Origin: Ruegeria sp. THAF57 | GTDB lineage: Bacteria > Pseudomonadota > Alphaproteobacteria > Rhodobacterales > Rhodobacteraceae | Assembly: GCF_903914075.1 (NCBI RefSeq) | Contig: NZ_CAIWNQ010000013.1 | Span: forward strand, 1 to 64,000 | DNA: 64,000 nt | Direction of reading: 5' to 3' | Part shown: one piece after another, positions 6,969 through 64,000 of the stretch | Numbering within the stretch: position 1 is the first letter of the stretch | Layout of the letters: every line of letters starts with the position of its first letter | Position numbers and translations under genes: made by a program | The notes under the pieces: model-generated | Database searches by the model: none | Told to the model about the DNA's origin: nothing | The model's input: the letters and a program-made list of their open reading frames with translations, nothing else

Positions 6969-7071
6969 CGCATTCTTTTATTCCACGGGATAATCTTTCC
7001 CGCACGCCGCAGATAGTCTCAGCGACCGTGCCGAAATAGATCGGGCTCATCACGAACGGAGCCCGAGACCC

Positions 7072-7776: not shown

Positions 7777-7858
7777 TCACCCGACCCTGCGGCGGCACCA
7801 CTGGTGTCGCCGCAACACCTTGCCCCCCTTGCTGCGCAGTGCACGAAGGCGTGACCCC

Positions 7859-8824
7859 ATGCTGAAACAACCGGACCCGGCTTTTGATCCGATCAATGCA
7901 GGCTTTGATGCGGTGTTTGCACCGGGCAGGCTGACCCTTGGGCTGGTTGCGCCAATCGAAACCTATGCCCATGGCCCCGTTCCCACGCTGGACGACCACG
8001 CGGCGCGGATTCAACTGGCCGAACAATTGGGCTTTGCCGCAGTCTGGCTGCGCGACGTGCCCTTCACCGTGCCCTCGTTCGGGGATGCGGGGCAGGTCTT
8101 TGATCCCTTTGTTTATCTGGGCTATCTGGCGGCGCAGACCAACCGGATCGCCCTTGGCGTGGCCAGCATCATCCTGCCGCTGCGCCATCCGGCGCATGTT
8201 GCCAAAGCCGCCGCCAGCGTCGATCAGCTGTCCGGTGGGCGGCTGGTGCTGGGCATCGCCTCGGGCGACCGCCCCGAGGAATACCCCGCCCTGAACCAAC
8301 CCTTCGCCCAAAGGTCCGAGGGGTTCCGCGACAGCTATGACTATATCCGCGCCATGGCGCAGCCCCACCCGCAGTTTCACAACGCGCGGGGCAGCGTGAC
8401 GGCAGGGATGGACATGCTGCCCAAGCCGGTGGGCACGCGGCTGCCGCTGCTGACCACGGGGCTCAGCCAGCAATCGCCGGACTGGTTCGCGCAGCATTCC
8501 GACGGCTGGATCACCTTCCCGCGCCCGGCCCCGCAACAGGCCCGGCTGATCGCCCAATACCGCGAAGCCATCGCCGCCCATGGCGGGCGCGACAAACCGG
8601 TGATGGAGCCGCTTTACGTCGATCTGGCCGCCGATCCTGACACTCCGCCGCGCCCGATCCATCTGGGCCTGCATCTGGGGTTGAACGCCCTGCGCGCCTA
8701 TCTGCGCACCCGGCAGCAGATCGGGGTCAACCATATCGCCCTGAACCTGCGCTTTAACGGGGCCGATATCCCCGACACTTTGACTAGGCTGGCCGACACG
8801 CTGCTGCCCGAGTTTTCCGCTTAA
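7859..8824 (+). CDS. Luciferase-like (LLM) flavin oxidoreductase
   Basis: This 321-residue TIM-barrel protein belongs to the bacterial luciferase-like family. RLTLGLVAPIE starts the first strand, GFAAVWLRDVPF follows at about 58, and the core motif RIALGVASIILPLRHPAHVAK is at about 95, then GGRLVLGIASGDRPEEYPA. These enzymes are usually FMNH2- or F420-dependent monooxygenases; the reduced flavin could come from a partner such as the nitroreductase upstream, which is inference. The start at 7859 is chosen because the N-terminus then matches family length; the frame is open further upstream inside the nitroreductase region. Confidence 0.8.
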   Translation: MLKQPDPAFDPINAGFDAVFAPGRLTLGLVAPIETYAHGPVPTLDDHAARIQLAEQLGFAAVWLRDVPFTVPSFGDAGQVFDPFVYLGYLAAQTNRIALGVASIILPLRHPAHVAKAAASVDQLSGGRLVLGIASGDRPEEYPALNQPFAQRSEGFRDSYDYIRAMAQPHPQFHNARGSVTAGMDMLPKPVGTRLPLLTTGLSQQSPDWFAQHSDGWITFPRPAPQQARLIAQYREAIAAHGGRDKPVMEPLYVDLAADPDTPPRPIHLGLHLGLNALRAYLRTRQQIGVNHIALNLRFNGADIPDTLTRLADTLLPEFSA

Positions 8825-8848
8825 TACCCGATCCAAGGACCCAAGGAC

Positions 8849-9424
8849 ATGAAACTGAAACTGCTGATCACATCCATGATGCTGGCTCTGGGCCTGTCCA
8901 TACACGCCAAAGCGCAAGAGGCCGAAAGCCCCGTCTATATGGTCGCCAGCCTGCGAGTCGATGACATGAAACCGTTCCTGAACGGCTATGTCTTTCCCGT
9001 CACTCCGATGCTGGAACAGGCCGGGGCCGAGATTCTGGTGGCCACCCCACAGGTCCAGTTGCTGGAAGGCCACTATAGCGCCAACTGGAGCGTCATCGTC
9101 CGCTTTCCCAGTCAGGCCGCGGCGGATGGCTGGTATCAGTCGCCCGAATATCAGGCCATGATCCCCCTGCGGCAGGGCCTGACGGACACCGACGTCTCGA
9201 CCCTGTTTTTCGCGCCCCAGTTTCTGATGCCCGGCCAAAAAAAATTGCGCGCAGGGGATTATACAGAATTCCGGGATTGTGATTGTCCAATCCGCCTCGT
9301 TATCATCCCCGGCCCGATCGTTATCTGTACTGTAGCCGTTGCGCAAAGGGCCCGCCCGACCAGCGGCGCAAGACGTTCAAATCTGACCCCCGACCGAAAG
9401 GTTATGACCAATGTCGCTACATGA
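8849..9424 (+). CDS. Secreted DUF1330-family protein with anomalous C-terminal extension
   Basis: Residues 1-22 form a signal peptide (KLLITSMMLALGLSIHAKAQ), so export is expected. Residues about 28-130 form a DUF1330 ferredoxin-like fold (YMVASLRVDDMKPF, WYQSPEYQAMIPLRQ, ending TDTDVSTLFFAP). DUF1330 proteins usually end near there. The remaining ~60 residues are low in recognisable structure, Cys- and Arg-containing, and run 14 bases into the next gene. An A8 run at 9237-9244 marks the change, so the natural stop may have been lost by a slip, or the tail may simply be read-through. Function is unknown. Confidence 0.65.
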   Translation: MKLKLLITSMMLALGLSIHAKAQEAESPVYMVASLRVDDMKPFLNGYVFPVTPMLEQAGAEILVATPQVQLLEGHYSANWSVIVRFPSQAAADGWYQSPEYQAMIPLRQGLTDTDVSTLFFAPQFLMPGQKKLRAGDYTEFRDCDCPIRLVIIPGPIVICTVAVAQRARPTSGARRSNLTPDRKVMTNVAT

Positions 9425-10055
9425 AAACATCGCCGCCCTGAAATCGCAGTTCGTTAAGCAATTGCCCCAGAAAACACTTGAAACCATGGCCCGCGCCACC
9501 GAAGAGCTGGCCGCTTCAGGCATTCTGGAGAAAACGATCAAACTGGGCGACACCCTGCCCGCCTTTACCCTGACAAACCAGGACGGTGAGGCCACAAGCT
9601 CAGCCGATCTGCTGAAAGACGGGCCTCTGGTCATCAGTGTCTATCGCGGCCAGTGGTGCCCCTATTGCAACCTCGAACTTGAGGCGCTGGAACGTAGTGC
9701 TGCCCAATTCCGCGCGGCGGGTGCGAACGTAGTCATCATCTCGCCCCAGACCACCGAGAAATCGAAGGTCACGAAATCGGAAAGATCACTGTCATTCGAC
9801 GTGCTGTCCGACCTTGGCAACAGCTACAGCCGCGAACTGGGGCTGGTGTTCGGACTGTCAGAGGAATTGCAGGCGCTTTACAAGGGTCTGGGCATCGACC
9901 TGCCCGCCTTTAACGGTGACGAAAGCTGGGAACTGCCGATGCCCGCGCGTCTGGTGATTGATGGCACAGGCAAGGTCGTCTACGCCGATATCAACCCCGA
10001 CTATACCCTCCGCCCCGAGCCCGAAGACACGCTGGCCGCGCTCAAGGCGCTTTGA
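9411..10055 (+). CDS. AhpC/TSA-family peroxiredoxin-like protein
   Basis: This 214-residue thioredoxin-fold protein has SVYRGQWCPYCNLELEALE at about residues 77-95. It contains a C-P-Y-C pair (Cys83, Cys86), matching the AhpC/TSA and Redoxin group that reduces peroxides with thiols. The ATG at 9411 follows GAAAGG. It has an extended N-terminal helix (about 1-40) before the fold. It sits between the DUF1330 gene and the AcoR-like regulator, and its role is probably cytoplasmic peroxide removal. Confidence 0.82.
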   Translation: MSLHENIAALKSQFVKQLPQKTLETMARATEELAASGILEKTIKLGDTLPAFTLTNQDGEATSSADLLKDGPLVISVYRGQWCPYCNLELEALERSAAQFRAAGANVVIISPQTTEKSKVTKSERSLSFDVLSDLGNSYSRELGLVFGLSEELQALYKGLGIDLPAFNGDESWELPMPARLVIDGTGKVVYADINPDYTLRPEPEDTLAALKAL

Positions 10056-49038: not shown

Positions 49039-50817
49039 TCAGAACGCTTCGACGTCCATCTCCATCACGGGGGCCGCAGTTGTCTTGATGCGGGCCAGAT
49101 GGGTGGCGGTCATTGGCAGATGGCGGGTGTTGTAGAAACGCGCACTTAGCAGCTTGGCGTCGTGGAATGCAGGGTCTTCACTGCCTGCGGCCAGCGCAGC
49201 TTGCGACGCAACCGCCTGCAGGCCCCACATGTAACCCAGCAGCACATGACCGAACAAATGCATGAAGTCATACGACCCCGACAGCGTCGCGTTGATGTCT
49301 TTCATGCCATTCTGAACAAAGGTCATCGCCGCAGTTTGCAGATCGTTCAGCGCGGCCTTCAGCGGTGCGATCACCTCGGCGCCGATGGTTTCATCATCCT
49401 TGTGCTCGGCGATGAAACCGCTGACAAGAGCGATGAAATCACGGAAGGCCTTGCCGTTGTCGGAGGGCAGTTTGCGGGCCACCAGATCCAGGGCCTGAAT
49501 GCCATTTGCGCCCTCATAGATCTGAGCAATACGCGCGTCGCGCAGACATTGGCTCAGGCCCCATTCCTCGATATAGCCGTGGCCGCCCAAGATCTGCTGG
49601 GACTGCACCGCCATGTCAAAGCCCTTATCCGAGCAGAACCCTTTCATGACCGGAGTCAGCAGGCTGATCAGCGCCAGCGCATCAGCGTCGTTGTTGCGAT
49701 GCGCCTGGTCCAGCTTCATTGACGACCACACACCCAAGGCGCGGCCCGCTTCCACAAAGCTTTTCTGATCCATCAGGTTGCGGCGGATGTCGGGATGCAC
49801 GATCAGCGGGTCGGCGGGACCTTCGGGGTTTTTCACGCCCGTCACGTCACGGCCCTGAAGGCGGTCCTTGGCATAGGCCAGCGCGTTTTGATAGCCCAGC
49901 TCGGCGGCCGAAACCCCCTGTAGGGCGGCGCCGATGCGGGCCTCGTTCATCATGGTGAACATGGCGCGCATACCCTTGTTGACCTCGCCCACCAGATACC
50001 CGGTCGCGCCGTCATAGTTCATCACGCAAGTGGCATTGCCGTGAATACCCATCTTCTTTTCCAGATTGCCCACCGACACACCGTTGCGCGCACCCAGCGA
50101 GCCGTCCTCGTTCACCAGAAACTTGGGCACGATGAAAAGCGAGATACCCTTGACGTTGTTCGGCTCGCCCGGAATTTTCGCCAGCACCAGATGGATGATG
50201 TTCTCGGCCATGTCGTGATCGCCGGACGAGATGAAGATCTTCTGGCCCGACACCTTATAGGTGCCATCTTCCTGAGGTTCCGCCTTGGTGCGAAGCAGTC
50301 CCAGATCGGTGCCGCAATGCGGTTCCGTCAGGTTCATGGTGCCGGTCCATTTGCAGCTGACCATGTTGGGCAGATAGGTGTTCTTCTGCTCGTCCGACGC
50401 ATGAGCCAGCAGGGCCGAGGCCGCCCCATGGGTCAGGCCGGGGTACATGATCAGCGCGTGGTTGGCCGCCGAGAACATCTGGTTCACGGCCGTATGCATG
50501 ACAAACGGCATGTTCTGGCCGCCGTATTCTTCGGGCATGTCGATGCCCGGCCAGCCGCCGTCGCGCAGCGCATCAAACGCTTCGGAAAAGCCGGTGGGTG
50601 TCCGCACGACACCGTTTTCCAGCGTGCAGCCTTCCTGATCGCCGGTCTGGTTCACCGGAGACATCACCTCGGACGCCAGCTTGCCTGCCTCTCCGATCAC
50701 GGCCGTCGTAAAATCGCGGTCCAGGTCTTCGTAACCCGGAATGTTCTGCGACGACAGATCGAACACGTCCTGCGTCAGATACGCATAATCTTTGGTAGGT
50801 GCGGTATAGGAAGGCAT
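49039..50817 (-). CDS. Acyl-CoA dehydrogenase with extended C-terminus
   Basis: This 592-residue acyl-CoA dehydrogenase is of the large two-domain type that includes FadE-like and DmdC-like enzymes. FAD-contacting [13 protein letters not shown] is near residue 163, [23 protein letters not shown] near 405, and the catalytic Glu lies in [15 protein letters not shown] near 433. A C-terminal ~120-residue helical extension follows. It makes the first double bond in beta-oxidation. Assignment to DMSP degradation is not warranted from this locus; fatty or cyclic acyl-CoA is more likely given the neighbours. Confidence 0.9.
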
Positions 50818-50850
50818 AAGATGCGCTTTCTTCTGTTAAGTCTGGAAAGG

Positions 50851-50877
50851 CCCGGCCGCATCCAAGGCGCGGCCGGG
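50851..50877. other. GC-rich intercistronic hairpin
   Basis: CCCGGCCGC-N9-GCGGCCGGG forms a perfect 9-bp stem in the 104-base gap between the acyl-CoA dehydrogenase and the nitronate monooxygenase-like gene. No U-tract follows on either strand. It may cause partial attenuation or mark an mRNA processing point in the long leftward transcript. Confidence 0.5.
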
Positions 50878-50921
50878 AGTGGAATTCGAATACGGGGAGA
50901 AGTACCGAATTCCGTAAAGGC

Positions 50922-51899
50922 TTAGGCGTTCAGGAAACCACCGAGGCGTTTGTTGATGATGTCGTCGGCCTCGGTCATGATCCGGTCGATCAGCTCCTGA
51001 CAGGTCGGGATATCGTTGATCAGGCCCGCAACCATGCCGCAGGACCATGCGCCTGCATCCATGTCGCCTTCTTTCATGATGCGGGGATAGACGCCCGCGA
51101 CTTTGTCCATGATGTCTTCGAAGGTGATCTTGTCGCCAAGTTCCTTTTCCTTCTCGATCAGCGCTTCAACCGCAGGGTTGGTCAGCACGCGTTCGGTGTT
51201 GCGCAGCGGGCGCATGACCAGACGGGTGTCCAGTTCGGACGCAGCGACGACAGCCTCTTTGACGTTCTGGTGGACCGGTGCCTCTTTTGTGGCCAGAAAA
51301 CGCGTGCCCATGTTCATGCCATCAGCGCCCATCGCCATCGACGCCACCAGCGAACGACCATCTGCCTGACCGCCCGACGCGACAAAGGGGATTTCAAGCT
51401 CATCTGCGGCGCGCGGCAGCAGGATCATGTTGGGGATGTCGTCTTCGCCCGGGTGGCCGCCGCATTCGAAACCGTCCACGGAAACGGCGTCACAGCCTAT
51501 CTCTTGCGCCTTGAGAGCGTGGCGCACCGAGGTGCATTTGTGGATCACCTTGATGCCCGCCTCTTTCAGATAGAGCATCACCTGCGACGGGTTGCGGCCT
51601 GCGGTTTCCACCGCCTTAACGCCACCCTCGATGATCGCCTTGACGTAGCCCGGATAGTCCGGCGTGTTGACGATCGGCAGGAAGGTCAGGTTCACCGCAA
51701 TGGGTTTGTCGGTCATGTCGCGGCAGCGCGCGATTTCATTTGCCAGATCCTTGGGCGACCCCAGCGACAGCGCCGTGATCGTGCCCAGACCACCGGCATT
51801 GGAAACGGCTGCAGCCATTTCAGCGTAGCCAACCATGTGCATCCCGCCCTGAATGATGGGGTGCTGGATGCCGAACATTTCGGTGATTGCAGTTTTCAT
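50922..51899 (-). CDS. Nitronate monooxygenase-like FMN protein (copy 1)
   Basis: This 325-residue TIM-barrel flavoprotein of the 2-nitropropane-dioxygenase group starts ITEMFGIQHPIIQGGMHMVGYAEMAAAVSNAGGLGTI. GCDAVSVDGFECGGHPGEDD is near residue 145 and the FMN phosphate site FVASGGQADGRSLVASMAMGADGMNMGT near 185. The start at 51899 has GAGGA eight bases upstream. The catalytic His of true nitronate monooxygenases aligns with GGHPG. In CoA-catabolic loci such proteins often act as enoyl reductases, which may apply here. Confidence 0.87.
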   Translation of the reverse strand: MKTAITEMFGIQHPIIQGGMHMVGYAEMAAAVSNAGGLGTITALSLGSPKDLANEIARCRDMTDKPIAVNLTFLPIVNTPDYPGYVKAIIEGGVKAVETAGRNPSQVMLYLKEAGIKVIHKCTSVRHALKAQEIGCDAVSVDGFECGGHPGEDDIPNMILLPRAADELEIPFVASGGQADGRSLVASMAMGADGMNMGTRFLATKEAPVHQNVKEAVVAASELDTRLVMRPLRNTERVLTNPAVEALIEKEKELGDKITFEDIMDKVAGVYPRIMKEGDMDAGAWSCGMVAGLINDIPTCQELIDRIMTEADDIINKRLGGFLNA

Positions 51900-51994
51900 T
51901 TTTAGTTCCTCTGTCATCGGGGCGCAGCCCCGCCGGTTGTTCTTCGTGTTCACGCGTGGGGGGGCCGCGCAAGGCGGTCCCGCCGAATAAGTGG

Positions 51995-52417
51995 TCAGGA
52001 CGCCTTGACCTTGACGCCAGGCATGACATGCCCTGTCTTTTCGGCCATCAGCTCGGCCAACCGAGCCGCAAGGGCGACCGGACGAATGGCGACCTCAAGC
52101 TCGGTCAGCTTGCCGGTCTCGTCAAAGCGGATCAGGTCAACCCCTTTCAGATCACGACCGTCGATCTGGGCCGAGAACTCCAGCACCACCGACATTTCAT
52201 CTTCGTTGATGAACTCGCGGTGATAGCGGAAATTCTCGAAGATGCTCATGACCATGGGCAGGGCCGTCGAAAGCGCGACATAGCCCGTGTAGGGGTTGTG
52301 GCCAGAGGGCGAATGCAACAGCGCATCGGGATGCGCCAGATCCTTGAGAAGATCCACATCCACCGTCTCGACGAAACGGTGCCAGTCGCTCAGACCCTTC
52401 TGGATTGCCGCGTTCAT
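51995..52417 (-). CDS. NTF2/SnoaL-like protein
   Basis: This 140-residue NTF2-like fold protein has an N-terminal helix pair (SDWHRFVETVDVDLLKDLAHPDALLHSP) and curved strands (NFRYHREFINEDEMSVVLEFSAQIDGRDLKGVDLIRFDETGKLTELEVAIRP, spread over about 70-120). It begins within the stop of the preceding DsbA-like gene (4-base overlap). Polyketide-cyclase-like isomerases and steroid delta-isomerases share this fold, but catalytic Asp/Tyr assignment is not secure. Confidence 0.8.
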   Translation of the reverse strand: MNAAIQKGLSDWHRFVETVDVDLLKDLAHPDALLHSPSGHNPYTGYVALSTALPMVMSIFENFRYHREFINEDEMSVVLEFSAQIDGRDLKGVDLIRFDETGKLTELEVAIRPVALAARLAELMAEKTGHVMPGVKVKAS

Positions 52418-53037
52418 TGTGCGGCACCCGCCTGCTGGCGAACGATCTCTTCTTCGATCTGGCCCAGACGTTCCTTGCCAAAGAAGATCTCGGACCCCAC
52501 GAACACGGTCGGAATGCCGAACACCTTGCGGTCAACCGCCGCGCTGGTATTGGCCACCAACCGGTCTTTCACGTCCTGATCCTGCGTGCGGGCCAGCAGA
52601 CGCTGACCGTCCAGCCCCGCATCAGTCATCGCCTGGGCGAACACCTCCGGGTCGTCCATCTTGAGGCTTTTTTCCCACATGGCAGAGAAGCCTGCCTGGA
52701 TATAAGCGTCATGAATGCCATCCAGTTCCGCCGCCGCGGCACCGCGCATCAGCAGCAGCGTGTTGACGGGGAAATGCTTGTTGAAGACATAATCCGTAAG
52801 GTCGTATTTCTGAACGAAGCGGTTGATCTCGATCCGGTCATAATCCAGCTTGCCCTTGATCTTGGAAAAGGCAAAGGCAGGCGCCATGTTGTTGGTGGCC
52901 TTGAAAATACCGCCCAGCAAGCAGGGGATATAGTTGAATTTGACACCGGTGCGCTGTTCGATCTGCGGCACAACCTTGTGGCAGAAATAAGCGTTCGGGC
53001 TGCCGAAATCATAGATGAAGTCTACGGTCACACTCAT
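52414..53037 (-). CDS. DsbA-fold 2-hydroxychromene-2-carboxylate isomerase-like protein
   Basis: This 207-residue thioredoxin/DsbA-fold protein has VDFIYDFGSPNAYFCHKVVPQIE at the N-terminus, where Ser replaces the redox CxxC and is the glutathione-contacting Ser of HCCA isomerase/kappa-GST. VFGIPTVFVGSEIFFGKERL near 175 is the conserved cis-Pro region. The start at 53037 has GAGGAT upstream. The founding member isomerises a naphthalene-degradation intermediate with glutathione; here the substrate is unknown. It lies between an SDR and the NTF2-like gene. Confidence 0.87.
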   Translation of the reverse strand: MSVTVDFIYDFGSPNAYFCHKVVPQIEQRTGVKFNYIPCLLGGIFKATNNMAPAFAFSKIKGKLDYDRIEINRFVQKYDLTDYVFNKHFPVNTLLLMRGAAAAELDGIHDAYIQAGFSAMWEKSLKMDDPEVFAQAMTDAGLDGQRLLARTQDQDVKDRLVANTSAAVDRKVFGIPTVFVGSEIFFGKERLGQIEEEIVRQQAGAAQ

Positions 53038-53047
53038 TGGTTTATCC

Positions 53048-53785
53048 TCACCACTTTTCCGTCCAGGGCCGCAGGTCAAGCTCATGCGTCCAGGCCGTGC
53101 GCGGCTGGTGGTGCAGCATGACGTAATTCTGCGCGATGTGATCGGGGTTCAGAATGCCGTCTTTTTCGCGCAGGTCGTCCACATTGGGTACGTTGTCGCG
53201 GATAAAGTTGCTATCGATGGCCCCGTCGATGATCGTATGCGCCACGTGGATGTTCTGCGGGCCCATTTCCCGTGCCAGAGATTGCGCAAAGGCGCGCAGC
53301 GCATGTTTGGCGCTGGAGAAGGCCGAGAACATCTTGCCGCCGCGCACGCTGGCGGTTGCACCGGTAAAGATGATGGTGCCGCGACCGCGTTCCTGCATCC
53401 GTATGGCGGCCTCGCGGCCCATCAGGAAGCCTGCAAAGCACGCCATCTCCCAGACCTTGCGATAGACCCGCGCGGTGGTTTCGGTTGCCTTGAACATGAC
53501 GTTCGCGCCGATGTTGAAAACGGCGACTTCGATCGGGCCAACCTCGGCTTCGATCTTGTCGAACAGTGCGACCATGACATCTTCGTCGCGCGCATCCGCG
53601 GGAAAGGCCCGCGCATCATACCCTTCGTCACGAATGGATTGCGCCAACGCCTCCAGCTCATCGGCATGACGGTCTCGGCGCACAAGACACGTCGTAAGTC
53701 CGTCGCGTGCAAATGCCCGCGCGATGGCCGCACCGGTGTCATCACCAGCACCAATGACCAGGCAAACGCCCTTTTTTTCACCCAT
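53048..53785 (-). CDS. SDR-fold protein lacking catalytic Ser and Tyr
   Basis: This 245-residue SDR fold has a nucleotide-binding VIGAGDDTGAAIARAF near residue 10. The usual YxxxK is F-S-S-A-K (Phe156, Lys160), and the Ser thirteen residues earlier is Ala143 in TGATASVRGG. The NNAG motif is altered to FNIGA. Three canonical positions have changed, so ordinary SDR dehydrogenase chemistry is doubtful; it may bind a nucleotide without catalysis or use other residues. It is the first gene of the long leftward beta-oxidation locus, with GGAGA before the ATG. Confidence 0.82.
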   Translation of the reverse strand: MGEKKGVCLVIGAGDDTGAAIARAFARDGLTTCLVRRDRHADELEALAQSIRDEGYDARAFPADARDEDVMVALFDKIEAEVGPIEVAVFNIGANVMFKATETTARVYRKVWEMACFAGFLMGREAAIRMQERGRGTIIFTGATASVRGGKMFSAFSSAKHALRAFAQSLAREMGPQNIHVAHTIIDGAIDSNFIRDNVPNVDDLREKDGILNPDHIAQNYVMLHHQPRTAWTHELDLRPWTEKW

Positions 53786-53917
53786 TTGGATTCTCCGTCA
53801 ATTCAGTGAGAGCACACGATCAACAGGGCACAGAGGGGAACGCTTAGACACCGCAACGCGGCGTAATGTCTGATTTCCTCCCGTGACCAAAGCCAAACGT
53901 CTTGGCAACTCCCAATT

Positions 53918-53938
53918 TTGGTCCTATTTGTAAACCAT
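53918..53938. promoter_or_regulatory. Candidate HxlR operator, distal
   Basis: TTGGTCCTATTTGTAAACCAT contains GGT (53920-53922) and ACC (53934-53936) eleven bases apart. It lies 28 bases before a second, more symmetrical site of the same layout, in the divergent region between the leftward SDR operon and the rightward HxlR gene. Confidence 0.45.
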
Positions 53939-53944
53939 GAGCAG

Positions 53945-53967
53945 TTCGGTTTAGATTTTCAACCGAA
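53945..53967. promoter_or_regulatory. Candidate HxlR operator, proximal
   Basis: TTCGGTT (53945-53951) and AACCGAA (53961-53967) form a perfect inverted repeat around nine bases, again with GGT-N11-ACC at the core. It lies 34-56 bases before the HxlR start at 54001. With the distal site it makes a tandem pair with centres 28 bases apart. Confidence 0.6.
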
Positions 53968-54000
53968 TTATGCAGCAAAGCAATTGTGACGTTGGGGTAC

Positions 54001-54546
54001 ATGGTAGGTAAACACAAACAGACTTGTTCCATCGCAGGGTTCCTGAACCTGTTTGGAGATGCTTGGACCCTGCTGATCGTGCGCGAAGCATTCTATGGAA
54101 CTACACGGTTTTCGGATTTTCAGCGCCGCACCGGAGCGGCCAAAAACCTGTTGTCGGACCGGCTGTCAAAGCTGGTTGACCATGAAATTCTGGAAAAGGT
54201 GGATATCGGCGCGACCGGTGCACACTATGTTTATAACCTCACCGCAAAAGGCCAGAGCCTGAAGCCGCTGCTGGCCTCTATCATCGTCTGGAGCAATGAG
54301 CATCTCTACCCGGATGGCCAGGAACCGACACTTGTTCTGAGCCGCGAAACCGGTGAGGTCGTGCACAGTTTTGAGATGAAGTTCGATTCTCTTCAGCCGC
54401 ATGTGGCACAGGATTTGGATGTGGTCGCAGGCCCCGGAGCAAACGAAGCCACAAGAAAGCGGCTTACGGTTGGACCGTGGCCAGCGTCCCAACGTGGACC
54501 CGAAAACGAAACCGAAGAAACACCAGAATTGAAGAAAGAAGCTTAA
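54001..54546 (+). CDS. HxlR-family winged-helix regulator with C-terminal extension
   Basis: This 181-residue paralogue of the HxlR protein at 4440 has CSIAGFLNLFGDAWTLLIVRE, then FQRRTGAAKNLLSDRLSKL and YNLTAKGQSLKPLL in residues about 9-100. An extension follows with LDVVAGPGANEATRKRL, matching GPGA-S/N-x-x-T-R of the first. The last 20 residues are acidic and lysine-rich. The ATG at 54001 (after GGGG) is favoured over a GTG at 53986. It is divergent from the SDR/beta-oxidation locus and one base ahead of the flavoprotein gene, so it probably controls one or both. Confidence 0.88.
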   Translation: MVGKHKQTCSIAGFLNLFGDAWTLLIVREAFYGTTRFSDFQRRTGAAKNLLSDRLSKLVDHEILEKVDIGATGAHYVYNLTAKGQSLKPLLASIIVWSNEHLYPDGQEPTLVLSRETGEVVHSFEMKFDSLQPHVAQDLDVVAGPGANEATRKRLTVGPWPASQRGPENETEETPELKKEA

Positions 54547-54547
54547 A

Positions 54548-55525
54548 TTGTCTCTTCCTAGCACTTTGTCTGAAAAACTGCGGCTACCCGTTGTTGCGGC
54601 ACCCCTTTTTATTATTTCGAACCCGGATCTTGTTATCGAACAATGCAAAGCAGGGATTGTGGGATCCTTCCCGTCGCTCAATGCGCGCGGAGAGGAAAGC
54701 TTTGAAAGCTGGCTGATACAGATTACCGAAGCACTGGCCGCCCATGATGCGGAAAATCCTGACAGCCCGGCCGCGCCATTTGCCGTCAACCTGATCGTGC
54801 ACCGCTCGAACAACCGGCTTGAGGAAGATCTGGCGCTGTGCGTGAAATACAAGGTCCCGCTTATCATCACGTCGCTGGGCGCGCGCCCCGAAATCAACGA
54901 GGCGATTCATTCCTATGGCGGCATCGTGCTGCACGATATCATCGACAACAGCTTTGCCAGGAAAGCCATCGACAAAGGGGCCGACGGGATCATTGCCGTC
55001 GCCGCCGGTGCCGGGGGCCATGCGGGCACGCAATCGCCGCTGGCCCTGATTCAGGAAATCCGCGAATGGTTCGATGGGCCGCTGCTGCTGTCGGGGGCCA
55101 TCGGGTCCGGTGCGTCCATTCTGGCGGCGCAGGCCGCAGGAGCAGATCTGGGCTATATCGGTTCGGCTTTCATCGCCACGACCGAGGCGCGGGCGGTTCA
55201 GGGGTACAAGGACTGCATCGCAGCATCCAGCGCCAAGGATATCGTGTATTCCAACCTGTTCACGGGAGTTCACGGCAACTACCTCAAACCTTCGATCGAA
55301 GCTGCGGGGATGGATCCCAACAACCTGCCCGAAAGCGACCCTTCCAAGATGGATTTCGGGTCCGGCGGGAATTCGGACAAAAAAGCCTGGAAAGACATCT
55401 GGGGCGCGGGTCAGGGGATTGGCGCGGTCAAAGAAGTGCTTTCCACTGCGGATCTGGTGGCCCGCCTGTCGGCGGAATACCACGCGGCGTTTTCGTCTTT
55501 GTCGTCTTCCTATAAAGCGAACTGA
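54548..55525 (+). CDS. Nitronate monooxygenase-like FMN protein (copy 2)
   Basis: This 325-residue TIM-barrel flavoprotein starts at TTG (54548), one base after the HxlR stop; AAGAAG lies before it and no better start fits the family N-terminus (KLRLPVVAAPLFIISNPDLVIEQCKAGIVGSFPSLNARG). ADGIIAVAAGAGGHAGTQSP near residue 140 carries the Gly-rich FMN region with the catalytic-His position; GAIGSGASILAAQAAGADLGYIGSAF follows near 185. It is not close in sequence to copy 1. The pairing with HxlR suggests induction by its substrate. Confidence 0.88.
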   Translation: MSLPSTLSEKLRLPVVAAPLFIISNPDLVIEQCKAGIVGSFPSLNARGEESFESWLIQITEALAAHDAENPDSPAAPFAVNLIVHRSNNRLEEDLALCVKYKVPLIITSLGARPEINEAIHSYGGIVLHDIIDNSFARKAIDKGADGIIAVAAGAGGHAGTQSPLALIQEIREWFDGPLLLSGAIGSGASILAAQAAGADLGYIGSAFIATTEARAVQGYKDCIAASSAKDIVYSNLFTGVHGNYLKPSIEAAGMDPNNLPESDPSKMDFGSGGNSDKKAWKDIWGAGQGIGAVKEVLSTADLVARLSAEYHAAFSSLSSSYKAN

Positions 55526-57781: not shown

Positions 57782-58843
57782 TTATGACAAACCACGCAGT
57801 CTTTGGAATTCGTGCAGCATCTCGCCGACACGACCGCAGTACTCTGGATCCTTGGCCGAGAATTCATCCACGACCTCCAGCGAATAGCGGCGCAGATCCT
57901 CTTGAGTCTGATCGTCAAGGCTGGTCAGTTCACCACCCATTTCCTCGACGAATTTCTTCTTGAACAACATGTCCCGGTACACGAAATGTGCACTTGCATC
58001 AGCGGACGTGGCACGCACGACTTCGTTGACTGTTGCCTTGAGGTCATCCCCCAAACTGTCCCACGCCTTGAGGCCCGCAAAGACTTCGCCATTCATGTGG
58101 CCCAGCAGGTCCGGTTCCGCGATATATTTGTTCACTTCCTGCAGGTTCATGCCCCAGCCTGTTGCGGTTGAGCCCCAATGCGCGCCCTCGGCAACACCCG
58201 TTTGCAACGCCTGATACAGCTCGCCTCCGGGGATGGACACAGGGGACGCACCCATTTTGGTGAATACAAGGGCCGCCGGTCCTGTTGAACGAACGCGCCA
58301 TCCTGCAAAGTCTTCCGTGGTTCGTAGCGGGCGATTGGAATACAGAGTCAGACCGGAATAGGACACCGGGCCGATCTGGAAAACGCCCTGTTCGGCATAG
58401 GCCTCGCGGATGACGTCCAGCGCACCCATTTCATACATGAATGCGGCCATCTCCTCGTGTTTGGACCAAGCCCCGATATGCCCGTTCAGATGGCCTGCCA
58501 CCGGGATACGACCGATCCAATAGGCCGGATAGATGAATGCGCTTTCCAAAAGACCTCGGCGCACGGCATTCAGAACCTCACCCGTCGGAACGATCCCGTT
58601 ACTTTGTACAGGGGTGATCGTCAGCTCGCCGTTGGTTGCTTGCGTAATGCGTTCGCAGAACTTGACGAACACCTCTTCGTAATACCAGTTGCCCGTCGGC
58701 CAGTGGGTTTGCATACGCCAGGTCAGGTTTCCGGCCGCGATGGCGGCTGGCGCAGCCAGCACTGAACCGGTCGCTGCGGCTGCCGCCGTGGATGCGGTGG
58801 CGGTCAGGAAACCGCGGCGGGAAGTTTTGGTGTTGTCCGTCAT
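57782..58843 (-). CDS. TRAP transporter solute-binding protein with Tat signal
   Basis: This 353-residue binding protein has a twin-arginine leader (SRRGFL at residues 8-13, Ala-rich hydrophobic stretch to about 37). The mature part starts NLTWRMQTHWPTGNWYYEEVF and has RPLRTTEDFAGWRVRSTG near 170 and LYQALQTGVAEGAHWGS near 205, as in the DctP/DctP7 types for oxoacids and hydroxyacids. The Tat signal means it is exported folded. It ends the operon with two permeases, a kinase-like protein, a ligase and an acyl-CoA dehydrogenase. Confidence 0.9.
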   Translation of the reverse strand: MTDNTKTSRRGFLTATASTAAAAATGSVLAAPAAIAAGNLTWRMQTHWPTGNWYYEEVFVKFCERITQATNGELTITPVQSNGIVPTGEVLNAVRRGLLESAFIYPAYWIGRIPVAGHLNGHIGAWSKHEEMAAFMYEMGALDVIREAYAEQGVFQIGPVSYSGLTLYSNRPLRTTEDFAGWRVRSTGPAALVFTKMGASPVSIPGGELYQALQTGVAEGAHWGSTATGWGMNLQEVNKYIAEPDLLGHMNGEVFAGLKAWDSLGDDLKATVNEVVRATSADASAHFVYRDMLFKKKFVEEMGGELTSLDDQTQEDLRRYSLEVVDEFSAKDPEYCGRVGEMLHEFQRLRGLS

Positions 58844-58871
58844 GTTATCTCCTCCTGGGTGACAGAAATTA

Positions 58872-60167
58872 TTAACCGTTTGTGAAATGTGTGATGATTT
58901 CGGGGAACACGAAGATCAGCGTGCCAGTCGACAGCATAAGCACCAGATAGGGCAGAACTGCGCTGTAAATCTGGGTGATAGGCGTTCTGGGACTGAGCGT
59001 TTTCAGGTAGAACAGGTTGTAGCCGAAAGGCGGCGAGATATAGCCGATGCACAGGTTTAGTTGGAACAGCACACAGAACCAGATCGGGTCCACACCCAGA
59101 CCGGCAACGATGGGATAGAAAATCGGCAACACCAGCAAAATGATGCCAATCGGATCCAGAAACATCCCAAGGATCAGCGTCACCGCCTGCATCAGCAAGA
59201 TCATCACCCATGGCTCAATGTCCATGCCACGCAGGGCGCTCTGCAAAAAAGCGGTGCCGCCCCCGCTGCCGTAGATTGCGGTAAAGGCCGAAGCCCCGAA
59301 CACGATCCACAGCACCATCCCGGTGACAGTGGCCGAGGAATGGCTGACCTCTTTGATATAAGTCCAGGTCAGCTCACCGCGAATGGCGACCGAAAGGGTC
59401 ACGGCGGCGGCCCCAACGGCGGCGGCCTCGGTCGGGGTGGCGATGCCGGCAAAGATCGACACCAGTACCGACAGAATGACCAAAAGCGGCAGGATTACCG
59501 ATTGCAAGGACGCAAGGCGCTCCGACCAAGGCGCGCGCTCCGCAGCCGGAGGGGCAAGACTGGTATTGGTCGTCGCCTTGAACAGGACATAGATCAGGAA
59601 CACGCCAAGCAAGATTAAACCCGCAACCATACCGCCCAGAAACAGCTTGCCGACCGATTGACCGGTTTGCATGCCGATCAGAATAAGCGTGATGGATGGC
59701 GGGATGATGATGCCTAACGTACCCGAGGCCCCAATTGTCCCCAGCACGAAGTTGCGGTCATAGCCGCGTTGGTCCATGGCCGGGATCCCAACCATTCCCG
59801 TGGTAATCGTCGAGGCGGCGCAACTGCCGGTCATCGCGGACAAAGTTGCGGCAAAGCCCGACGTGCCAACAAGCAACCCACCGGGCATCCGTCCCGACCA
59901 TAGATGGAAGGCGTGGTACAGATCCTCGGCGATGCGCGATCTTGCAAGGGCCACCCCGATGAACACGAAAAAAGGGATGGACGACAGAAGGATCGACCAC
60001 ATCCCGCCGAACATTGTCGAAACGATGGAATACATGCCGTTCGGACCGAACATGATATAGCCGAAGACCACAGCCGTTCCGCCCATGGCGAAAGCCAGCG
60101 ATACGCCGCAGATGATGGCAACCAGCACCATGCCGAACATACCAAGCGTCAGCAATTCAGGTGTCAT
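58872..60167 (-). CDS. TRAP transporter large permease subunit (DctM-type)
   Basis: This 431-residue large permease has about twelve helices and the DctM motifs GFAATLSAMTGSCAASTITTG, GASGTLGIIIPPSITLILIGMQT and LCIGYISPPFGYNLFYLK. The start at 60167 overlaps the small-subunit stop by four bases; upstream in-frame sequence is shadow of that gene. It imports the ligand of the Tat-exported binding protein. Confidence 0.92.
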   Translation of the reverse strand: MTPELLTLGMFGMVLVAIICGVSLAFAMGGTAVVFGYIMFGPNGMYSIVSTMFGGMWSILLSSIPFFVFIGVALARSRIAEDLYHAFHLWSGRMPGGLLVGTSGFAATLSAMTGSCAASTITTGMVGIPAMDQRGYDRNFVLGTIGASGTLGIIIPPSITLILIGMQTGQSVGKLFLGGMVAGLILLGVFLIYVLFKATTNTSLAPPAAERAPWSERLASLQSVILPLLVILSVLVSIFAGIATPTEAAAVGAAAVTLSVAIRGELTWTYIKEVSHSSATVTGMVLWIVFGASAFTAIYGSGGGTAFLQSALRGMDIEPWVMILLMQAVTLILGMFLDPIGIILLVLPIFYPIVAGLGVDPIWFCVLFQLNLCIGYISPPFGYNLFYLKTLSPRTPITQIYSAVLPYLVLMLSTGTLIFVFPEIITHFTNG

Positions 60168-60679
60168 TGTACAGGACCTTCCACAGTTGCAGCCGGGTTG
60201 AAGAACGTCACAATCGCCTCGATTGCGTAGACAATGCCCTGCAGGGTGATCAGCAGGCTGCCAAGAAACAGCGCAAGTTTCGGAGGCCACATCGGGTGCC
60301 CCAGCGCACTGTCGTCCATTTCGTTAAATTGCCAGGCGTCCAGAACGAACAACCACCCTTCGCGGGTCAGAACGACACCCCACAGGATCAGAAACAGATA
60401 GTTCATTAGATCCAGCAGGGCCCGGCCACGCGGCCCAGCGGCGTTCAGCACAATATCGACGCGGACATGATCCTTGCGGATCAGGGTATAGGCCCCGATC
60501 AGCACAAAATAGGACCCGAAAATGCGCTGGGTGTAGCCATGCGCCCAAAGGGTCGGCTGGCCAAAGCCATAGCGGGCGACCACTTCAAAACACAGCACGA
60601 CAATACCAGCCCAGATCAGCAAGCTGACTAGTTGACCGATCATCACGTTCAGATTGGTAATCACCCTGAGGATTCTCAC
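60164..60679 (-). CDS. TRAP transporter small permease subunit (DctQ-type)
   Basis: This 171-residue protein has the four-helix DctQ arrangement (about 12-35, 50-72, 90-112 and 130-155), with LIRKDHVRVDIVLNAAGPRGRALLDL as the cytoplasmic loop. Its start overlaps the phosphotransferase stop by four bases, so transport and kinase genes are translationally coupled. Confidence 0.9.
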   Translation of the reverse strand: MRILRVITNLNVMIGQLVSLLIWAGIVVLCFEVVARYGFGQPTLWAHGYTQRIFGSYFVLIGAYTLIRKDHVRVDIVLNAAGPRGRALLDLMNYLFLILWGVVLTREGWLFVLDAWQFNEMDDSALGHPMWPPKLALFLGSLLITLQGIVYAIEAIVTFFNPAATVEGPVQ

Positions 60680-61707
60680 AGCGTTCCCCCCCAGGTGCGA
60701 TCGCCCTGTTCAGCAATCTCTTGTGCGCGCAATGCGAACCGCGCGGCCAGAGGCGCCAGGTTTGCAGCCTCATCCGACGCCGCATTACCGGCGCGGACGC
60801 GATCTGCGATACCCACAAAGATGACCGCAAAGCGAAACAGGGCAAAAGCCAGATGAAAGCTGCGCAGGGCGCTGGTAGGAACGGCATGGGCGAAATATTC
60901 GGCCACGAACGCCTCGAGCGTCGGAATGCCGCTGTTTTCCCACGGGGTCCCTTTGATCCCTCCGTATTCGTCGGGTTCGGTGTGCCAGGGCATGACGCAA
61001 AACCCCAGATCAGCCAGAGGATGACCGAGGGTGGAAAGCTCCCAATCCAGCACGGCAATGATACGCGGTTCGGTCGGGTGGAACATCATGTTGCCAAGAC
61101 GAAAATCCCCGTGCGCGATAGACACGCCACCGTCGTCTTCGGGCAGGTTGTCCGGCAGCCACTCGACCAGCATGTCCAGTGCCGGGATGCGCGGACCGGT
61201 AGATTGTGCATATTGCTTGGACCAGCGCCCGATCTGGCGTTCGAAATAGTTGCCGGGGCGACCGTAATCGCCGATCCCGACCTCATCCGGGCGCACCGCA
61301 TGCATCCGGGCCATGGTGCGCGCCATGTCCAGATACATCTCGTGGCGGTCCTGAGGTGAAATATCCGGCAGCGTACAATCCGAGATCACCCGGCCATCCA
61401 ACCGATCCATCACGTAAAAAGGCGTCCCGATGATGCTGTCGTCTTCTTCCAGCCACAGCGCCTTGGGTACCGGAACATTTGAATGTTCAAGGGCTGTCAG
61501 CACACGAAATTCGCGTTCGACCGCGTGCGCCCCGGGCAGAATCGGGCCATCGGGTTTTTTACGCAGCACAAGCCGACGATCGCCCCAGGTCACGAACCAG
61601 GTCGGGTTTGACTGCCCGCCCGTAATCGGCTCGGCAGTCAGGCCGCTCTGATCCGGCAGTTTTTCTGCAAGCCAGCCTTCCAGCGCCGTGAGGTCAAGGT
61701 TGCTCAT
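60676..61707 (-). CDS. APH-fold phosphotransferase, ACAD10/11 kinase-domain type
   Basis: This 343-residue aminoglycoside-phosphotransferase-fold kinase has the N-lobe ITGGQSNPTWFVTW and LVLRKKPDG near residue 30-55. IAHGDFRLGNMMFHP near 195 has the HxDxxxxN catalytic loop, and VLDWELSTLGHPLADLGF near 218 carries the metal Asp. IGTPFYVMDRLDGRV and ENSGIPTLEAF match the kinase half of mammalian ACAD10/11 and bacterial LvaA, which phosphorylate hydroxyacyl-CoA at C4 rather than antibiotics. It overlaps the ligase gene by 14 bases. The adjacent ACAD10/11-type dehydrogenase supports this reading. Confidence 0.85.
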   Translation of the reverse strand: MSNLDLTALEGWLAEKLPDQSGLTAEPITGGQSNPTWFVTWGDRRLVLRKKPDGPILPGAHAVEREFRVLTALEHSNVPVPKALWLEEDDSIIGTPFYVMDRLDGRVISDCTLPDISPQDRHEMYLDMARTMARMHAVRPDEVGIGDYGRPGNYFERQIGRWSKQYAQSTGPRIPALDMLVEWLPDNLPEDDGGVSIAHGDFRLGNMMFHPTEPRIIAVLDWELSTLGHPLADLGFCVMPWHTEPDEYGGIKGTPWENSGIPTLEAFVAEYFAHAVPTSALRSFHLAFALFRFAVIFVGIADRVRAGNAASDEAANLAPLAARFALRAQEIAEQGDRTWGGTL

Positions 61708-63277
61708 GAGTTGCCATCTCCTTGGCTTGTTCACGCAATTGGAATTTCTGGATTTTTCCGGTGGCGGTCTTGGGCAAAGGCCCAACGATAAAGCGGCGCG
61801 GGCGTTTGAACCCGGCCAGACGGGCCCGGCAAAACGCATCCAGCGCTTCGGTATCAATCGGCTTTCCCCCGCGCGTTTCAACAAAGGCCCAGCCGGTCTC
61901 GCCCCATTTTTCGTGGGGCGCAGCTACCACCGCGGCCAGCAGGATGTCAGGGTGGTGATGCAGCACCGATTCAACCTCGAGGCTCGAGAAATTCTCGCCG
62001 CCTGAAATGATGATGTCCTTGGCCCGGTCCCTGATCTCGATCTGCCCGTCGGGGTGCATCACCGCCAGATCGCCCGTATGAAAGACCCCCCCGGCAAATG
62101 CTTTTTCGGTGGCCTCTGGGTCGCGGTAATATCCCGCCATCAAGGTATTGCCGCGCAGCACGATCTCGCCCACGGTTTCACCATCATCCGGAACAACGGC
62201 CCCATCCACACCCACCACGGCCACTTTGCCCGTGTTGCAGTGCCGTCGCCCTTGCCGGGCCAGCAGGCGCGCGCGCTGCGCCACATCCGGGGGGCCATGG
62301 GGGCCGGGGTCGTTGATCGTGGCCGGGCCATAGCTTTCGGTCAGGCCGTAAAGATGCGTGAGGTCAAAACCCAGCTCGTCCAGCCCCGCCAGAAGTGCGG
62401 GAGTGGGCGTCGCGCCGCCGGTTCCAACCCGCACACGCGACAATGCCGAAGCCTTCATATGATCCAGCAGCATATACAGAACCACGGGCGCACAGCACAT
62501 GTGGGTGACAGCCCTCTCTGCGATGGTCTGCACGATCAGCGCCGGATCAACCTTGTCGAGACACACATGCAGCCCGCCCGCAGCCGTCAAGGCCCAGGTA
62601 TGGGTCCAGCCGTTGCAATGGAACATCGGCAAAGTCCAAAGATAGCGGGTCTCGGGTGTGAAATGCATCATCGCCAGATTGCTGGTCGCGTTCAGCTGCG
62701 CGCCGCGATGCGTGTACACAACCCCCTTGGGACGGCCTGTCGTCCCCGAAGTATAGTTCAGAGCAATCGGCTGGTTCTCGTCATGTACAGCGGCCAGAAG
62801 GTCCAGCGCGGGCGCATCGCCGCTGAAGAAATTGACGCCATCACTCTGATCAGCGCCGCTGCACAGGACATGAACCGGTATCTGGATGCCGCTCGGATCG
62901 ACGGCAACAGTTGGATCGACAAGCAACAGGCTTGAGCCTCCGTGCTCTAGGATATAGCGCACTTCCTCAGTATCCAGCCGTGTGTTGACCGTGTTCAGCA
63001 CCGCGCCAAGCGCCGGAACGGCGTAATGCGCAGCAAGCAATTCCGGACGGTTCGTCGCCATGACAGACACAACATCGCCCGGGCCGACCCCCTGATCGCG
63101 CAGCCAATGCGCCATACGCGCGACAAGGTCGTTGAATTCGGCATAGGTCCAGATGTCGGTGCGCCACGCGACAGCAGGTCGTTCCGCATATACGTCCACC
63201 GCACGCGCCAGAAAACTAAGCGGAGTCAACGGCTGGCAGGTCACCGCACGCGGTGCCAGATGAGGCTCATGAAACAT
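61694..63277 (-). CDS. Acyl-CoA synthetase (AMP-binding, medium/long-chain type)
   Basis: This 527-residue ligase has its P-loop in LNYTSGTTGRPKGVVYTHRG near residue 171, LYGLTESYGPATINDPGP near 315, FHTGDLAVMHPDGQIEIRDRAKDIIISGGENFSSLEVE (spread over about 400-437) and a C-terminal Lys in KTATGKIQKFQLR. It is related to the acyl-CoA synthetases found beside ACAD10/11-like genes (LvaE-type). It likely converts the TRAP-imported acid to its CoA ester for the kinase and dehydrogenase on either side. Confidence 0.88.
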   Translation of the reverse strand: MFHEPHLAPRAVTCQPLTPLSFLARAVDVYAERPAVAWRTDIWTYAEFNDLVARMAHWLRDQGVGPGDVVSVMATNRPELLAAHYAVPALGAVLNTVNTRLDTEEVRYILEHGGSSLLLVDPTVAVDPSGIQIPVHVLCSGADQSDGVNFFSGDAPALDLLAAVHDENQPIALNYTSGTTGRPKGVVYTHRGAQLNATSNLAMMHFTPETRYLWTLPMFHCNGWTHTWALTAAGGLHVCLDKVDPALIVQTIAERAVTHMCCAPVVLYMLLDHMKASALSRVRVGTGGATPTPALLAGLDELGFDLTHLYGLTESYGPATINDPGPHGPPDVAQRARLLARQGRRHCNTGKVAVVGVDGAVVPDDGETVGEIVLRGNTLMAGYYRDPEATEKAFAGGVFHTGDLAVMHPDGQIEIRDRAKDIIISGGENFSSLEVESVLHHHPDILLAAVVAAPHEKWGETGWAFVETRGGKPIDTEALDAFCRARLAGFKRPRRFIVGPLPKTATGKIQKFQLREQAKEMATHEQP

Positions 63278-63301
63278 TTCAGATCCTTCCTTGGCAGGCT
63301 G

Positions 63302-64000
63302 TCAGCCCGCCTGTGTTTCCCAAGTCCAGAAACCGCGCCGTTGTTCCGTCAGATGACGATTGAGAACCATCTGGTGAACTTCGTCCGCGCCATCCACAAG
63401 GCGCGCCTGCCGCGCATAGCGATAGATCCATTCCAGCACCGTGTCGCGACTGTATCCACGCGCACCATTCACCTGAATGGCCACATCAGCCGCTTTGTGT
63501 ACCAAATTGGCGACGTGAATTTTTGCCATCGACACTTCCTTGCGGGCAAAGCTGCCCTGATCAATGGCCCAAGCGGCCTTCATGACCAGAAGGCGACCCA
63601 TTTCTATGCCCATGGCCAGATCGCCCAGCTTGATCTGAATGCTCTCGCGATCTGACAAACGCACTCCGAACCCGTGGCGGTTTTGGGCGTATTCCGTCGC
63701 GATCTCAGTGCAGCGCTTGGCCAGACCCAGCCAGCGCATGCAATGGGTCAGACGCGCAGGGCCAAGCCGCATCTGGGTCACTTTCAGGCCCAAACCCTCG
63801 CCCAGCAGCACACGGTCTGCCGGCAGTTCCATGTCTTCATAGACAATCTCGCAATGGCCGCCATGTTCTTCCGGGCCCATAATCGGAATACGGCGATCTA
63901 TGCGCCAACCCGGTTCATCCCTGTGATGCAGAAAGGCCGTCAAACCCCGGCGCGGATCATCCGACGTGCGCGCCAAGGTGATAAAATGGCCCGCGTCGGC
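63302..64000 (-). CDS. ACAD10/11-type acyl-CoA dehydrogenase, 5' part outside window
   Basis: The C-terminal 232 residues of an acyl-CoA dehydrogenase are visible; the frame is open to the right edge, so roughly the first 160 residues lie beyond it. EEHGGHCEIVYEDMELP, LGEGLGLKVTQMRLGPARLTH and DGADEVHQMVLNRHL are typical of the ACAD10/11 branch. In that branch the dehydrogenase domain works with an APH-type kinase, here a separate gene. It is the upstream visible gene of the leftward ligase-kinase-TRAP operon. Confidence 0.85.
   Translation of the reverse strand, partial: ADAGHFITLARTSDDPRRGLTAFLHHRDEPGWRIDRRIPIMGPEEHGGHCEIVYEDMELPADRVLLGEGLGLKVTQMRLGPARLTHCMRWLGLAKRCTEIATEYAQNRHGFGVRLSDRESIQIKLGDLAMGIEMGRLLVMKAAWAIDQGSFARKEVSMAKIHVANLVHKAADVAIQVNGARGYSRDTVLEWIYRYARQARLVDGADEVHQMVLNRHLTEQRRGFWTWETQAG

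Follow-up and report, generated by a model that had tools for sequence, protein, structure and literature searches.

The stretch of DNA analysed here (below, the window) comprises 64,000 nucleotides, i.e., bases 1-64000 of the 67245-base contig NZ_CAIWNQ010000013.1 in the 4.28 Mb genome of Ruegeria sp. THAF57. At its right edge, and continuing into the 3245 bases beyond, which were also read for open reading frames (ORFs), lies a leftward operon of seven genes. These encode, in order, a short-chain dehydrogenase/reductase (SDR), an acyl-CoA dehydrogenase, a coenzyme A (CoA) ligase, a kinase and the DctQ, DctM and receptor parts of a tripartite ATP-independent periplasmic (TRAP) transporter. 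The operon is real, and it is a variant of the lva / ACAD10-11 pathway whose transporter and kinase type differ from those of the known bacterial version. From left to right, its genes are:

57782..58843, minus strand: TRAP solute receptor (DctP) with twin-arginine signal (PF03480, 1.5e-32)
58872..60167, minus strand: TRAP large permease (DctM), 431 aa (TIGR00786, 7.3e-87, passes the cut-off)
60164..60679, minus strand: TRAP small permease (DctQ), 171 aa (PF04290, 8.6e-22)
60676..61707, minus strand: predicted ACAD10/11-type 4-hydroxyacyl-CoA kinase, 343 aa (PF01636, APH, 8.5e-53)
61694..63277, minus strand: acyl-CoA ligase, 527 aa (PF00501, AMP-binding, 1.4e-76)
63302..64000, on to 64510 outside the window, minus strand: homologue of phosphate-eliminating acyl-CoA dehydrogenases, 402 aa (Acyl-CoA_dh_1, 1.1e-36 over the portion up to position 64000)
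64522-65352 as called, outside the window, leftward: SDR, LvaD-like

Gaps between genes of the operon do not exceed 28 bases, and with re-called starts three neighbouring pairs overlap (kinase/DctQ and DctM/DctQ by 4 bases each, ligase/kinase by 14). Receptor, small and large permease belong to the DctP, DctQ and DctM families, respectively, as expected of a TRAP transporter. Kinase and dehydrogenase are two genes with the ligase gene between them, i.e., an ACAD10/11-style fusion is absent. An earlier reading made from the letters of the window (the sequence-only reading) had placed these genes correctly, all on the minus strand, and its quoted motifs as well as the 4-base kinase/DctQ overlap are found exactly so. 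It had also considered that genes past the right edge might assign the dehydrogenase to an unrelated pathway; its neighbour there is the LvaD-like SDR, which speaks for the reading.

We first consider the dehydrogenase, whose best PDB match is ACAD11 (5.4e-68). In ACAD11, the 4-phosphate is contacted by R626, H634 and R637, D753 is the catalytic base, R631 orients the substrate and H597 has a lesser role (PMC12440821; this and the other papers are cited from excerpts). All six residues are identical in 97/97 window-type rows of a 116-row alignment, where the 97 include the window protein and one duplicate, and the set is also complete in LvaC-type and ACAD10/11-type rows. Among the 11 other dehydrogenases of the genome (those found at E 1e-15), the full six occur only once, namely in a canonical ACAD10/11 orthologue. 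A proline of the enlarged cavity (PMC11342911) is kept in 96/97 window-type rows.

The dehydrogenase tree places window-type, LvaC-type and ACAD10/11-type proteins in three separate clades; their 33 rows are joined, with the other ten dehydrogenases of the genome outside (SH-aLRT 98; this and the other trees come from short searches and are supported by SH-aLRT alone). Identity of the window protein is 36% to mouse ACAD11 and 40% to the LvaC-type protein encoded on an Azotobacter plasmid, and among the plasmid matches listed, the identities show a gap from 63.6 to 43.4%. For LvaC, PMC11342911 gives identities of 62% to the ACAD10 and 56% to the ACAD11 domain; these were not reproduced with the LvaC-type protein of locus L087, which stands in for the LvaC of KT2440 and is 33% identical to mouse ACAD11. 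The canonical orthologue and, about 13 kb away from it, an ACAD10/11-type kinase lie on contig C1 of the genome (811867-812919, L094, and 825946-826947). The orthologue is 49% identical to mouse ACAD11, is without the cavity proline and has beside it an SDR and an enoyl-CoA hydratase (both named by eye).

The window kinase matches PDB entry 3dxp (1e-91) and mouse ACAD11 (1.4e-67). A tree of 45 kinases splits into two groups. The first holds the window kinase together with ACAD11 and 3dxp, joined by a long-branch Cupriavidus kinase, and the second the LvaA-type kinases. Identities agree with this split: 41% to mouse ACAD11 over 310 positions vs. 23-27% to the LvaA-type kinases of four loci (L086, L087, L089, L092). 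While the catalytic Asp (D220) and Asn (N225) are kept in 87/87 classified kinases, a match to the CoA-contacting R176 is found in 60/60 ACAD10/11-type vs. 5/27 LvaA-type kinases. An Arg beside the alphaC Glu, which we equate with the published R86 though the residue count is off by about two, is found in 60/60 vs. 1/27. By sequence, the window kinase thus belongs to the ACAD10/11 kinase clade and not to the LvaA clade. Kinases of this type are common (146/248 sampled genomes of the family at E 1e-60), and the genome has its second one on contig C1. A sharp boundary of the kinase family was considered and rejected, since the identities in the family sample run 51, 49, 48, 47% without a clear gap.

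For plasmids, 10 of the best 60 of 483 matching records were opened, together with two further matches from another search. Two of them (L181, L182) carry an lva arrangement of kinase, DUF6285, dehydrogenase, SDR, acyl-CoA synthetase, DUF485 and acetate-type symporter behind a PrpR-like regulator; L182 additionally has a histidine phosphatase gene, and L087 is similar, with the regulator not in view. The DUF6285 relative of L181 is annotated as lvaB, the 4-hydroxypentanoyl-CoA kinase subunit, and these genes match the lva set described for P. putida KT2440 (PMC6692424). The window SDR is 47-48% identical to LvaD of these plasmid operons and forms one clade with it that excludes nine other SDRs (SH-aLRT 99). 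The window ligase is likewise 47-48% identical to LvaE-type ligases, and an unlinked ligase of the same genome reaches 52% to LvaE of L181. LvaB/DUF6285 (PF19802) has no match in the whole genome, with matches in 2/14 control genomes.

We also related the type of kinase to the presence of DUF6285 among loci with a window-type dehydrogenase. Here, 96 distinct loci, fetched in different ways, were compared within a neighbourhood of 4.5 kb; the duplicate L122, which has the dehydrogenase of L057, was dropped from 97, and the count leaves aside 13 further fetched loci that lack a window-type dehydrogenase. The dehydrogenase of L122 (Profundibacterium mesophilum) recurs in one sampled genome of the family (G170), which puts the source organism near the Roseobacters. 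An ACAD10/11-type kinase is present at 55/96 loci, none of which has DUF6285 (0/55), and an LvaA-type kinase at 26/96, with DUF6285 in 22/26; the other four LvaA-type loci, and 15/96 loci without a recognised kinase, are exceptions. Fisher's test gives p = 4e-16 and ignores shared descent. The class-wide sample alone (367 genomes, window-type dehydrogenase at E 1e-140 in 46 including the own genome, DUF6285 in 84) gives 0/7 ACAD10/11-type and 20/24 LvaA-type loci with DUF6285, plus 15 loci without kinase. When the kinase label is placed on the dehydrogenase tree, two changes are needed, and the starred branches force two. Together, the counts and the label changes suggest that LvaB usually moves along with the type of kinase, whereas the dehydrogenase is retained.

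The TRAP genes were followed starting from the kinase and starting from the receptor. In the family sample (248 genomes), 25 loci were read through the kinase (at least 51% identity, own locus included); a kinase fragment at a contig end (G147, 70%) is not among them. A window-type dehydrogenase stands beside the kinase in 23, a matching ligase (at least 54%) in 7 and the receptor in 3. Given these 3/25, the TRAP transporter is an accessory that only some lineages have beside a core cassette of SDR, dehydrogenase and kinase. Weakly similar TRAP genes (24-36%) are found near the kinase in five other loci (L052, L059, L061, L067, L070). At E 1e-60, 4/248 family genomes have the receptor; in G137 it lies apart from the kinase.

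Starting from the receptor, a scan of genome contigs yielded 30 loci, 28 at 70% identity or more and two at 48-49%; no such kinase is present on the short contigs of the latter two. For 24/28 close orthologues, this kinase is nearby on the same strand, in 23 of these 24 directly upstream of DctQ and in L111 within a second cluster downstream. In three of the four receptor loci without kinase, the contig ends at or inside the TRAP genes (L105, L128, L131). Hosts of TRAP-linked loci include Roseovarius, Roseivivax, Paracoccus, Limimaricola and Roseicyclus, and the same operon was found on a Sulfitobacter plasmid; Sulfitobacter dubius CI.11.F.A3 (L083) is a cultured carrier. In L178 (2364-3704), a window-type dehydrogenase that has no recognised kinase lies close to the gene of a TRAP large permease, so that the link to TRAP could have evolved repeatedly.

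Some of these loci show further features. In a Ruegeria locus (L134, ~7000-9700), the operon seems to have decayed to a remnant: behind an SDR match, less than 3 kb hold partial matches to dehydrogenase, ligase, DctM and receptor. A PIG3-family quinone oxidoreductase and an alpha/beta hydrolase follow the TRAP-linked operon of L083 (15029-17049), and an alpha/beta hydrolase is found downstream of the receptor in L107 and L129. These could possibly provide extra steps, e.g., alkenal reduction or lactone opening.

With regard to export, the Arg-Arg pair at positions 9-10 is invariant in 17/17 aligned receptors and the strict S-R-R-x-F-[hydrophobic] motif is present in 26/33 called receptor ORFs, which is in line with export by the twin-arginine (Tat) route. 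By sequence, lactate receptors are the most closely related solved structures, with 2zzv as the best. By fold, a lactate receptor comes first and the top 14 rows also hold 7ug8 (alpha-ketovalerate) and 2hzk (alpha-keto acids), while other rows, several equally close, name no ligand. In structural alignments, the window receptor is 19-29% identical to 2zzv/2zzx (lactate), 7ug8 and 2hzk. This kinship fits a short hydroxy or oxo monocarboxylate, without fixing the position of the oxygen.

A TetR-family gene is divergent from the SDR gene; the next gene beyond TetR, ccoP (cytochrome oxidase), is unrelated. The palindrome CGARCGYTCG occurs in 21/33 TetR-SDR gaps (26 copies vs. 0.08 expected in letter shuffles), where two of the 33 gaps stem from the same organism and L111 is excluded for its too long gap. 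Three copies lie between SDR and TetR of the window operon. Since one of them falls inside the called SDR frame, the SDR gene probably starts at a more internal position. Genome-wide, 7 matches to the 13-base form WWTCGARCGYTCG were counted, three of them in the window operon, and 2 to the reversed control pattern. Promoter and terminator scans were no richer than shuffles (2 vs. 3.9 and 10 vs. 9.7, respectively). Judging by the palindrome copies, the operon is probably TetR-controlled.

We consider it likely that the seven genes, under the control of TetR, serve the breakdown of a short monocarboxylic acid with a 4-oxo or 4-hydroxy group, i.e., levulinate, 4-hydroxyvalerate or a near relative. 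The acid would be imported by the Tat-exported receptor and DctQM, and the ligase would make its CoA thioester. Where needed, the LvaD-like SDR would reduce the 4-oxo group to a 4-hydroxyl, which the ACAD10/11-type kinase would then phosphorylate on the acyl-CoA. Finally, the dehydrogenase, using FAD without net oxidation, would eliminate the phosphate to give a 2-enoyl-CoA for beta-oxidation. Phosphorylation and phosphate elimination are proven for ACAD10/11 (PMC12440821), and orthologues from Burkholderia carried out both as well (PMC11342911); conserved residues and clade placement lead us to infer the same chemistry for the window kinase and dehydrogenase. Substrate, regulation and every activity in this pathway are likewise predictions from sequence. 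LvaE of P. putida accepts C4-C6 acids, levulinate and 4-hydroxyvalerate among them (PMC6692424); given this, the LvaD-like SDR and the receptor kinship, a C4-C6 substrate may serve as a first guess.

The same chemistry could also act on a longer 4-hydroxy fatty acid or on a gamma-lactone that is opened first, with the TRAP transporter importing something else or several short acids. A longer substrate is suggested by ACAD11, which enables the catabolism of longer-chain 4-hydroxy acids (PMC12440821), while the nearest relatives of the window receptor bind short hydroxy or keto monocarboxylates. A different cargo would suit the rarity of the receptor among family-sample kinase loci (3/25), yet close receptor orthologues nearly always lie near this kinase. 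The hydrolase that follows, with the PIG3-family oxidoreductase, some TRAP-linked operons (L083) could open lactones or esters; however, it reaches the cut-off of no lactonase model, and the genes past the window receptor are an NhaC-type antiporter and an Lrp-type regulator (the latter named by eye) and not an oxidoreductase and a hydrolase. On balance, we regard this alternative as unlikely. The families of APH-fold kinases and of acyl-CoA dehydrogenases are large and cover many substrates, and no NCBIfam model reaches its cut-off for the window kinase or dehydrogenase, so that one might think of a generic beta-oxidation cassette with an ordinary dehydrogenase for branched or cyclic acyl-CoA and a kinase for some other metabolite; this is very improbable, as the full ACAD11 residue set is missing in 10/11 other dehydrogenases of the genome while invariant in 97 window-type rows, the kinase lies in the ACAD11 kinase clade and the SDR is LvaD-like.

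Several observations weigh against the proposed operon for short 4-oxo or 4-hydroxy acids. The receptor is missing from 22/25 kinase loci of the family sample, and 4/24 TRAP-linked loci are without a whole ligase gene (L108, L111, L115, L130). Orthology of the window ligase to LvaE is not supported, since the two do not form a group that leaves out the genome's remaining ligases. The window-type dehydrogenase forms a clade of its own, such that its substrate may differ from those of ACAD11 and the LvaC type. No recognised kinase was found within 4.5 kb of the window-type dehydrogenase at 15/96 loci, and a scan of ten neighbour proteins from 8 of these 15 gave no kinase. Furthermore, 12/33 TetR-SDR gaps have no copy of the palindrome, and the model of the receptor has a mean pLDDT of 70.7, a medium confidence.

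The sequence-only reading is borne out in most parts and corrected in others. Its claim of import, activation, phosphorylation and elimination by one operon is backed by the signatures of kinase and dehydrogenase, the LvaD-like SDR and the conserved TRAP linkage, with the kinase type corrected and the TRAP part demoted to an add-on. Accordingly, the dedicated receptor it had named as the new element is a conserved operon partner where present (24/28) but belongs to few of the family-sample loci. What it had called a split ACAD10/11 system does consist of a separate kinase and dehydrogenase with the published signatures; the splitting itself is not new, since Burkholderia orthologues had already been assayed (PMC11342911). 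The likeness it drew to LvaA/LvaC/LvaE extends to the LvaD-like SDR and the signature residues and ends at the kinase, which is ACAD10/11-type and not LvaA-type, and at LvaB, absent from the genome.

Beyond the window, we propose, with confidence evenly balanced between acceptance and doubt, that the 4-hydroxyacyl-CoA pathway uses exchangeable kinase modules. That is, a two-part (LvaA+LvaB) and a self-sufficient (ACAD10/11-type) version would have been swapped at least twice beside one dehydrogenase lineage, and in Roseobacter-type bacteria the self-sufficient version would have become linked to a TRAP transporter devoted to 4-oxo/4-hydroxy acids. Already known are the reactions, the lva operon and the occurrence of kinase and dehydrogenase as separate proteins. 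In the open-licence literature searched, we found neither a TRAP transporter tied to this pathway nor the kinase/LvaB exchange pattern, and no assignment of 4-oxo/4-hydroxy acids as a TRAP substrate class. If true, Roseobacter-type bacteria would have a dedicated route for uptake and degradation of 4-oxo and 4-hydroxy acids, a TRAP receptor family without known ligand would gain a likely ligand class and the mammalian ACAD11 kinase a free-standing relative. Since DUF6285/LvaB stands beside LvaA-type and not ACAD10/11-type kinases, the exchange pattern makes the LvaB requirement in Pseudomonas directly testable.

Elsewhere in the window (49039-55525), a second apparent catabolic cluster was noted, with all gene names given by eye: a 592 aa acyl-CoA dehydrogenase-like ORF, two nitronate monooxygenase-like ORFs, an SDR, a DsbA-like isomerase and a small helix-turn-helix regulator.

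Compared to the lva operon of Pseudomonas, the window operon has the same four kinds of enzymes, i.e., a kinase, a dehydrogenase with the signature residues, an LvaD-like SDR and an acyl-CoA ligase. In contrast to lva, its kinase is of the other clade, LvaB/DUF6285 is found neither in the operon nor in the genome, the ligase is apparently not the LvaE orthologue, a TRAP transporter takes the place of DUF485 and acetate-type symporter, and a TetR gene that of the PrpR-type regulator of L181 and L182. With the Burkholderia pair, which replaced the ACAD10 domains in vitro (PMC11342911), it shares that kinase and dehydrogenase are separate proteins, a likeness by description and not by sequence or gene surroundings; the excerpts of PMC11342911 mention no transporter for that pair. 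As in mammalian ACAD10/11 (PMC12440821, PMC11342911), the dehydrogenase keeps R626, R631, H634, R637 and D753, and the kinase shares the clade of mouse ACAD11 (the only mammalian protein compared, i.e., not ACAD10) at 41% identity. Unlike ACAD11, the window system consists of two separate proteins, with its dehydrogenase in a separate clade at 36% identity, and the genes for SDR, ligase and transporter share one operon with them.

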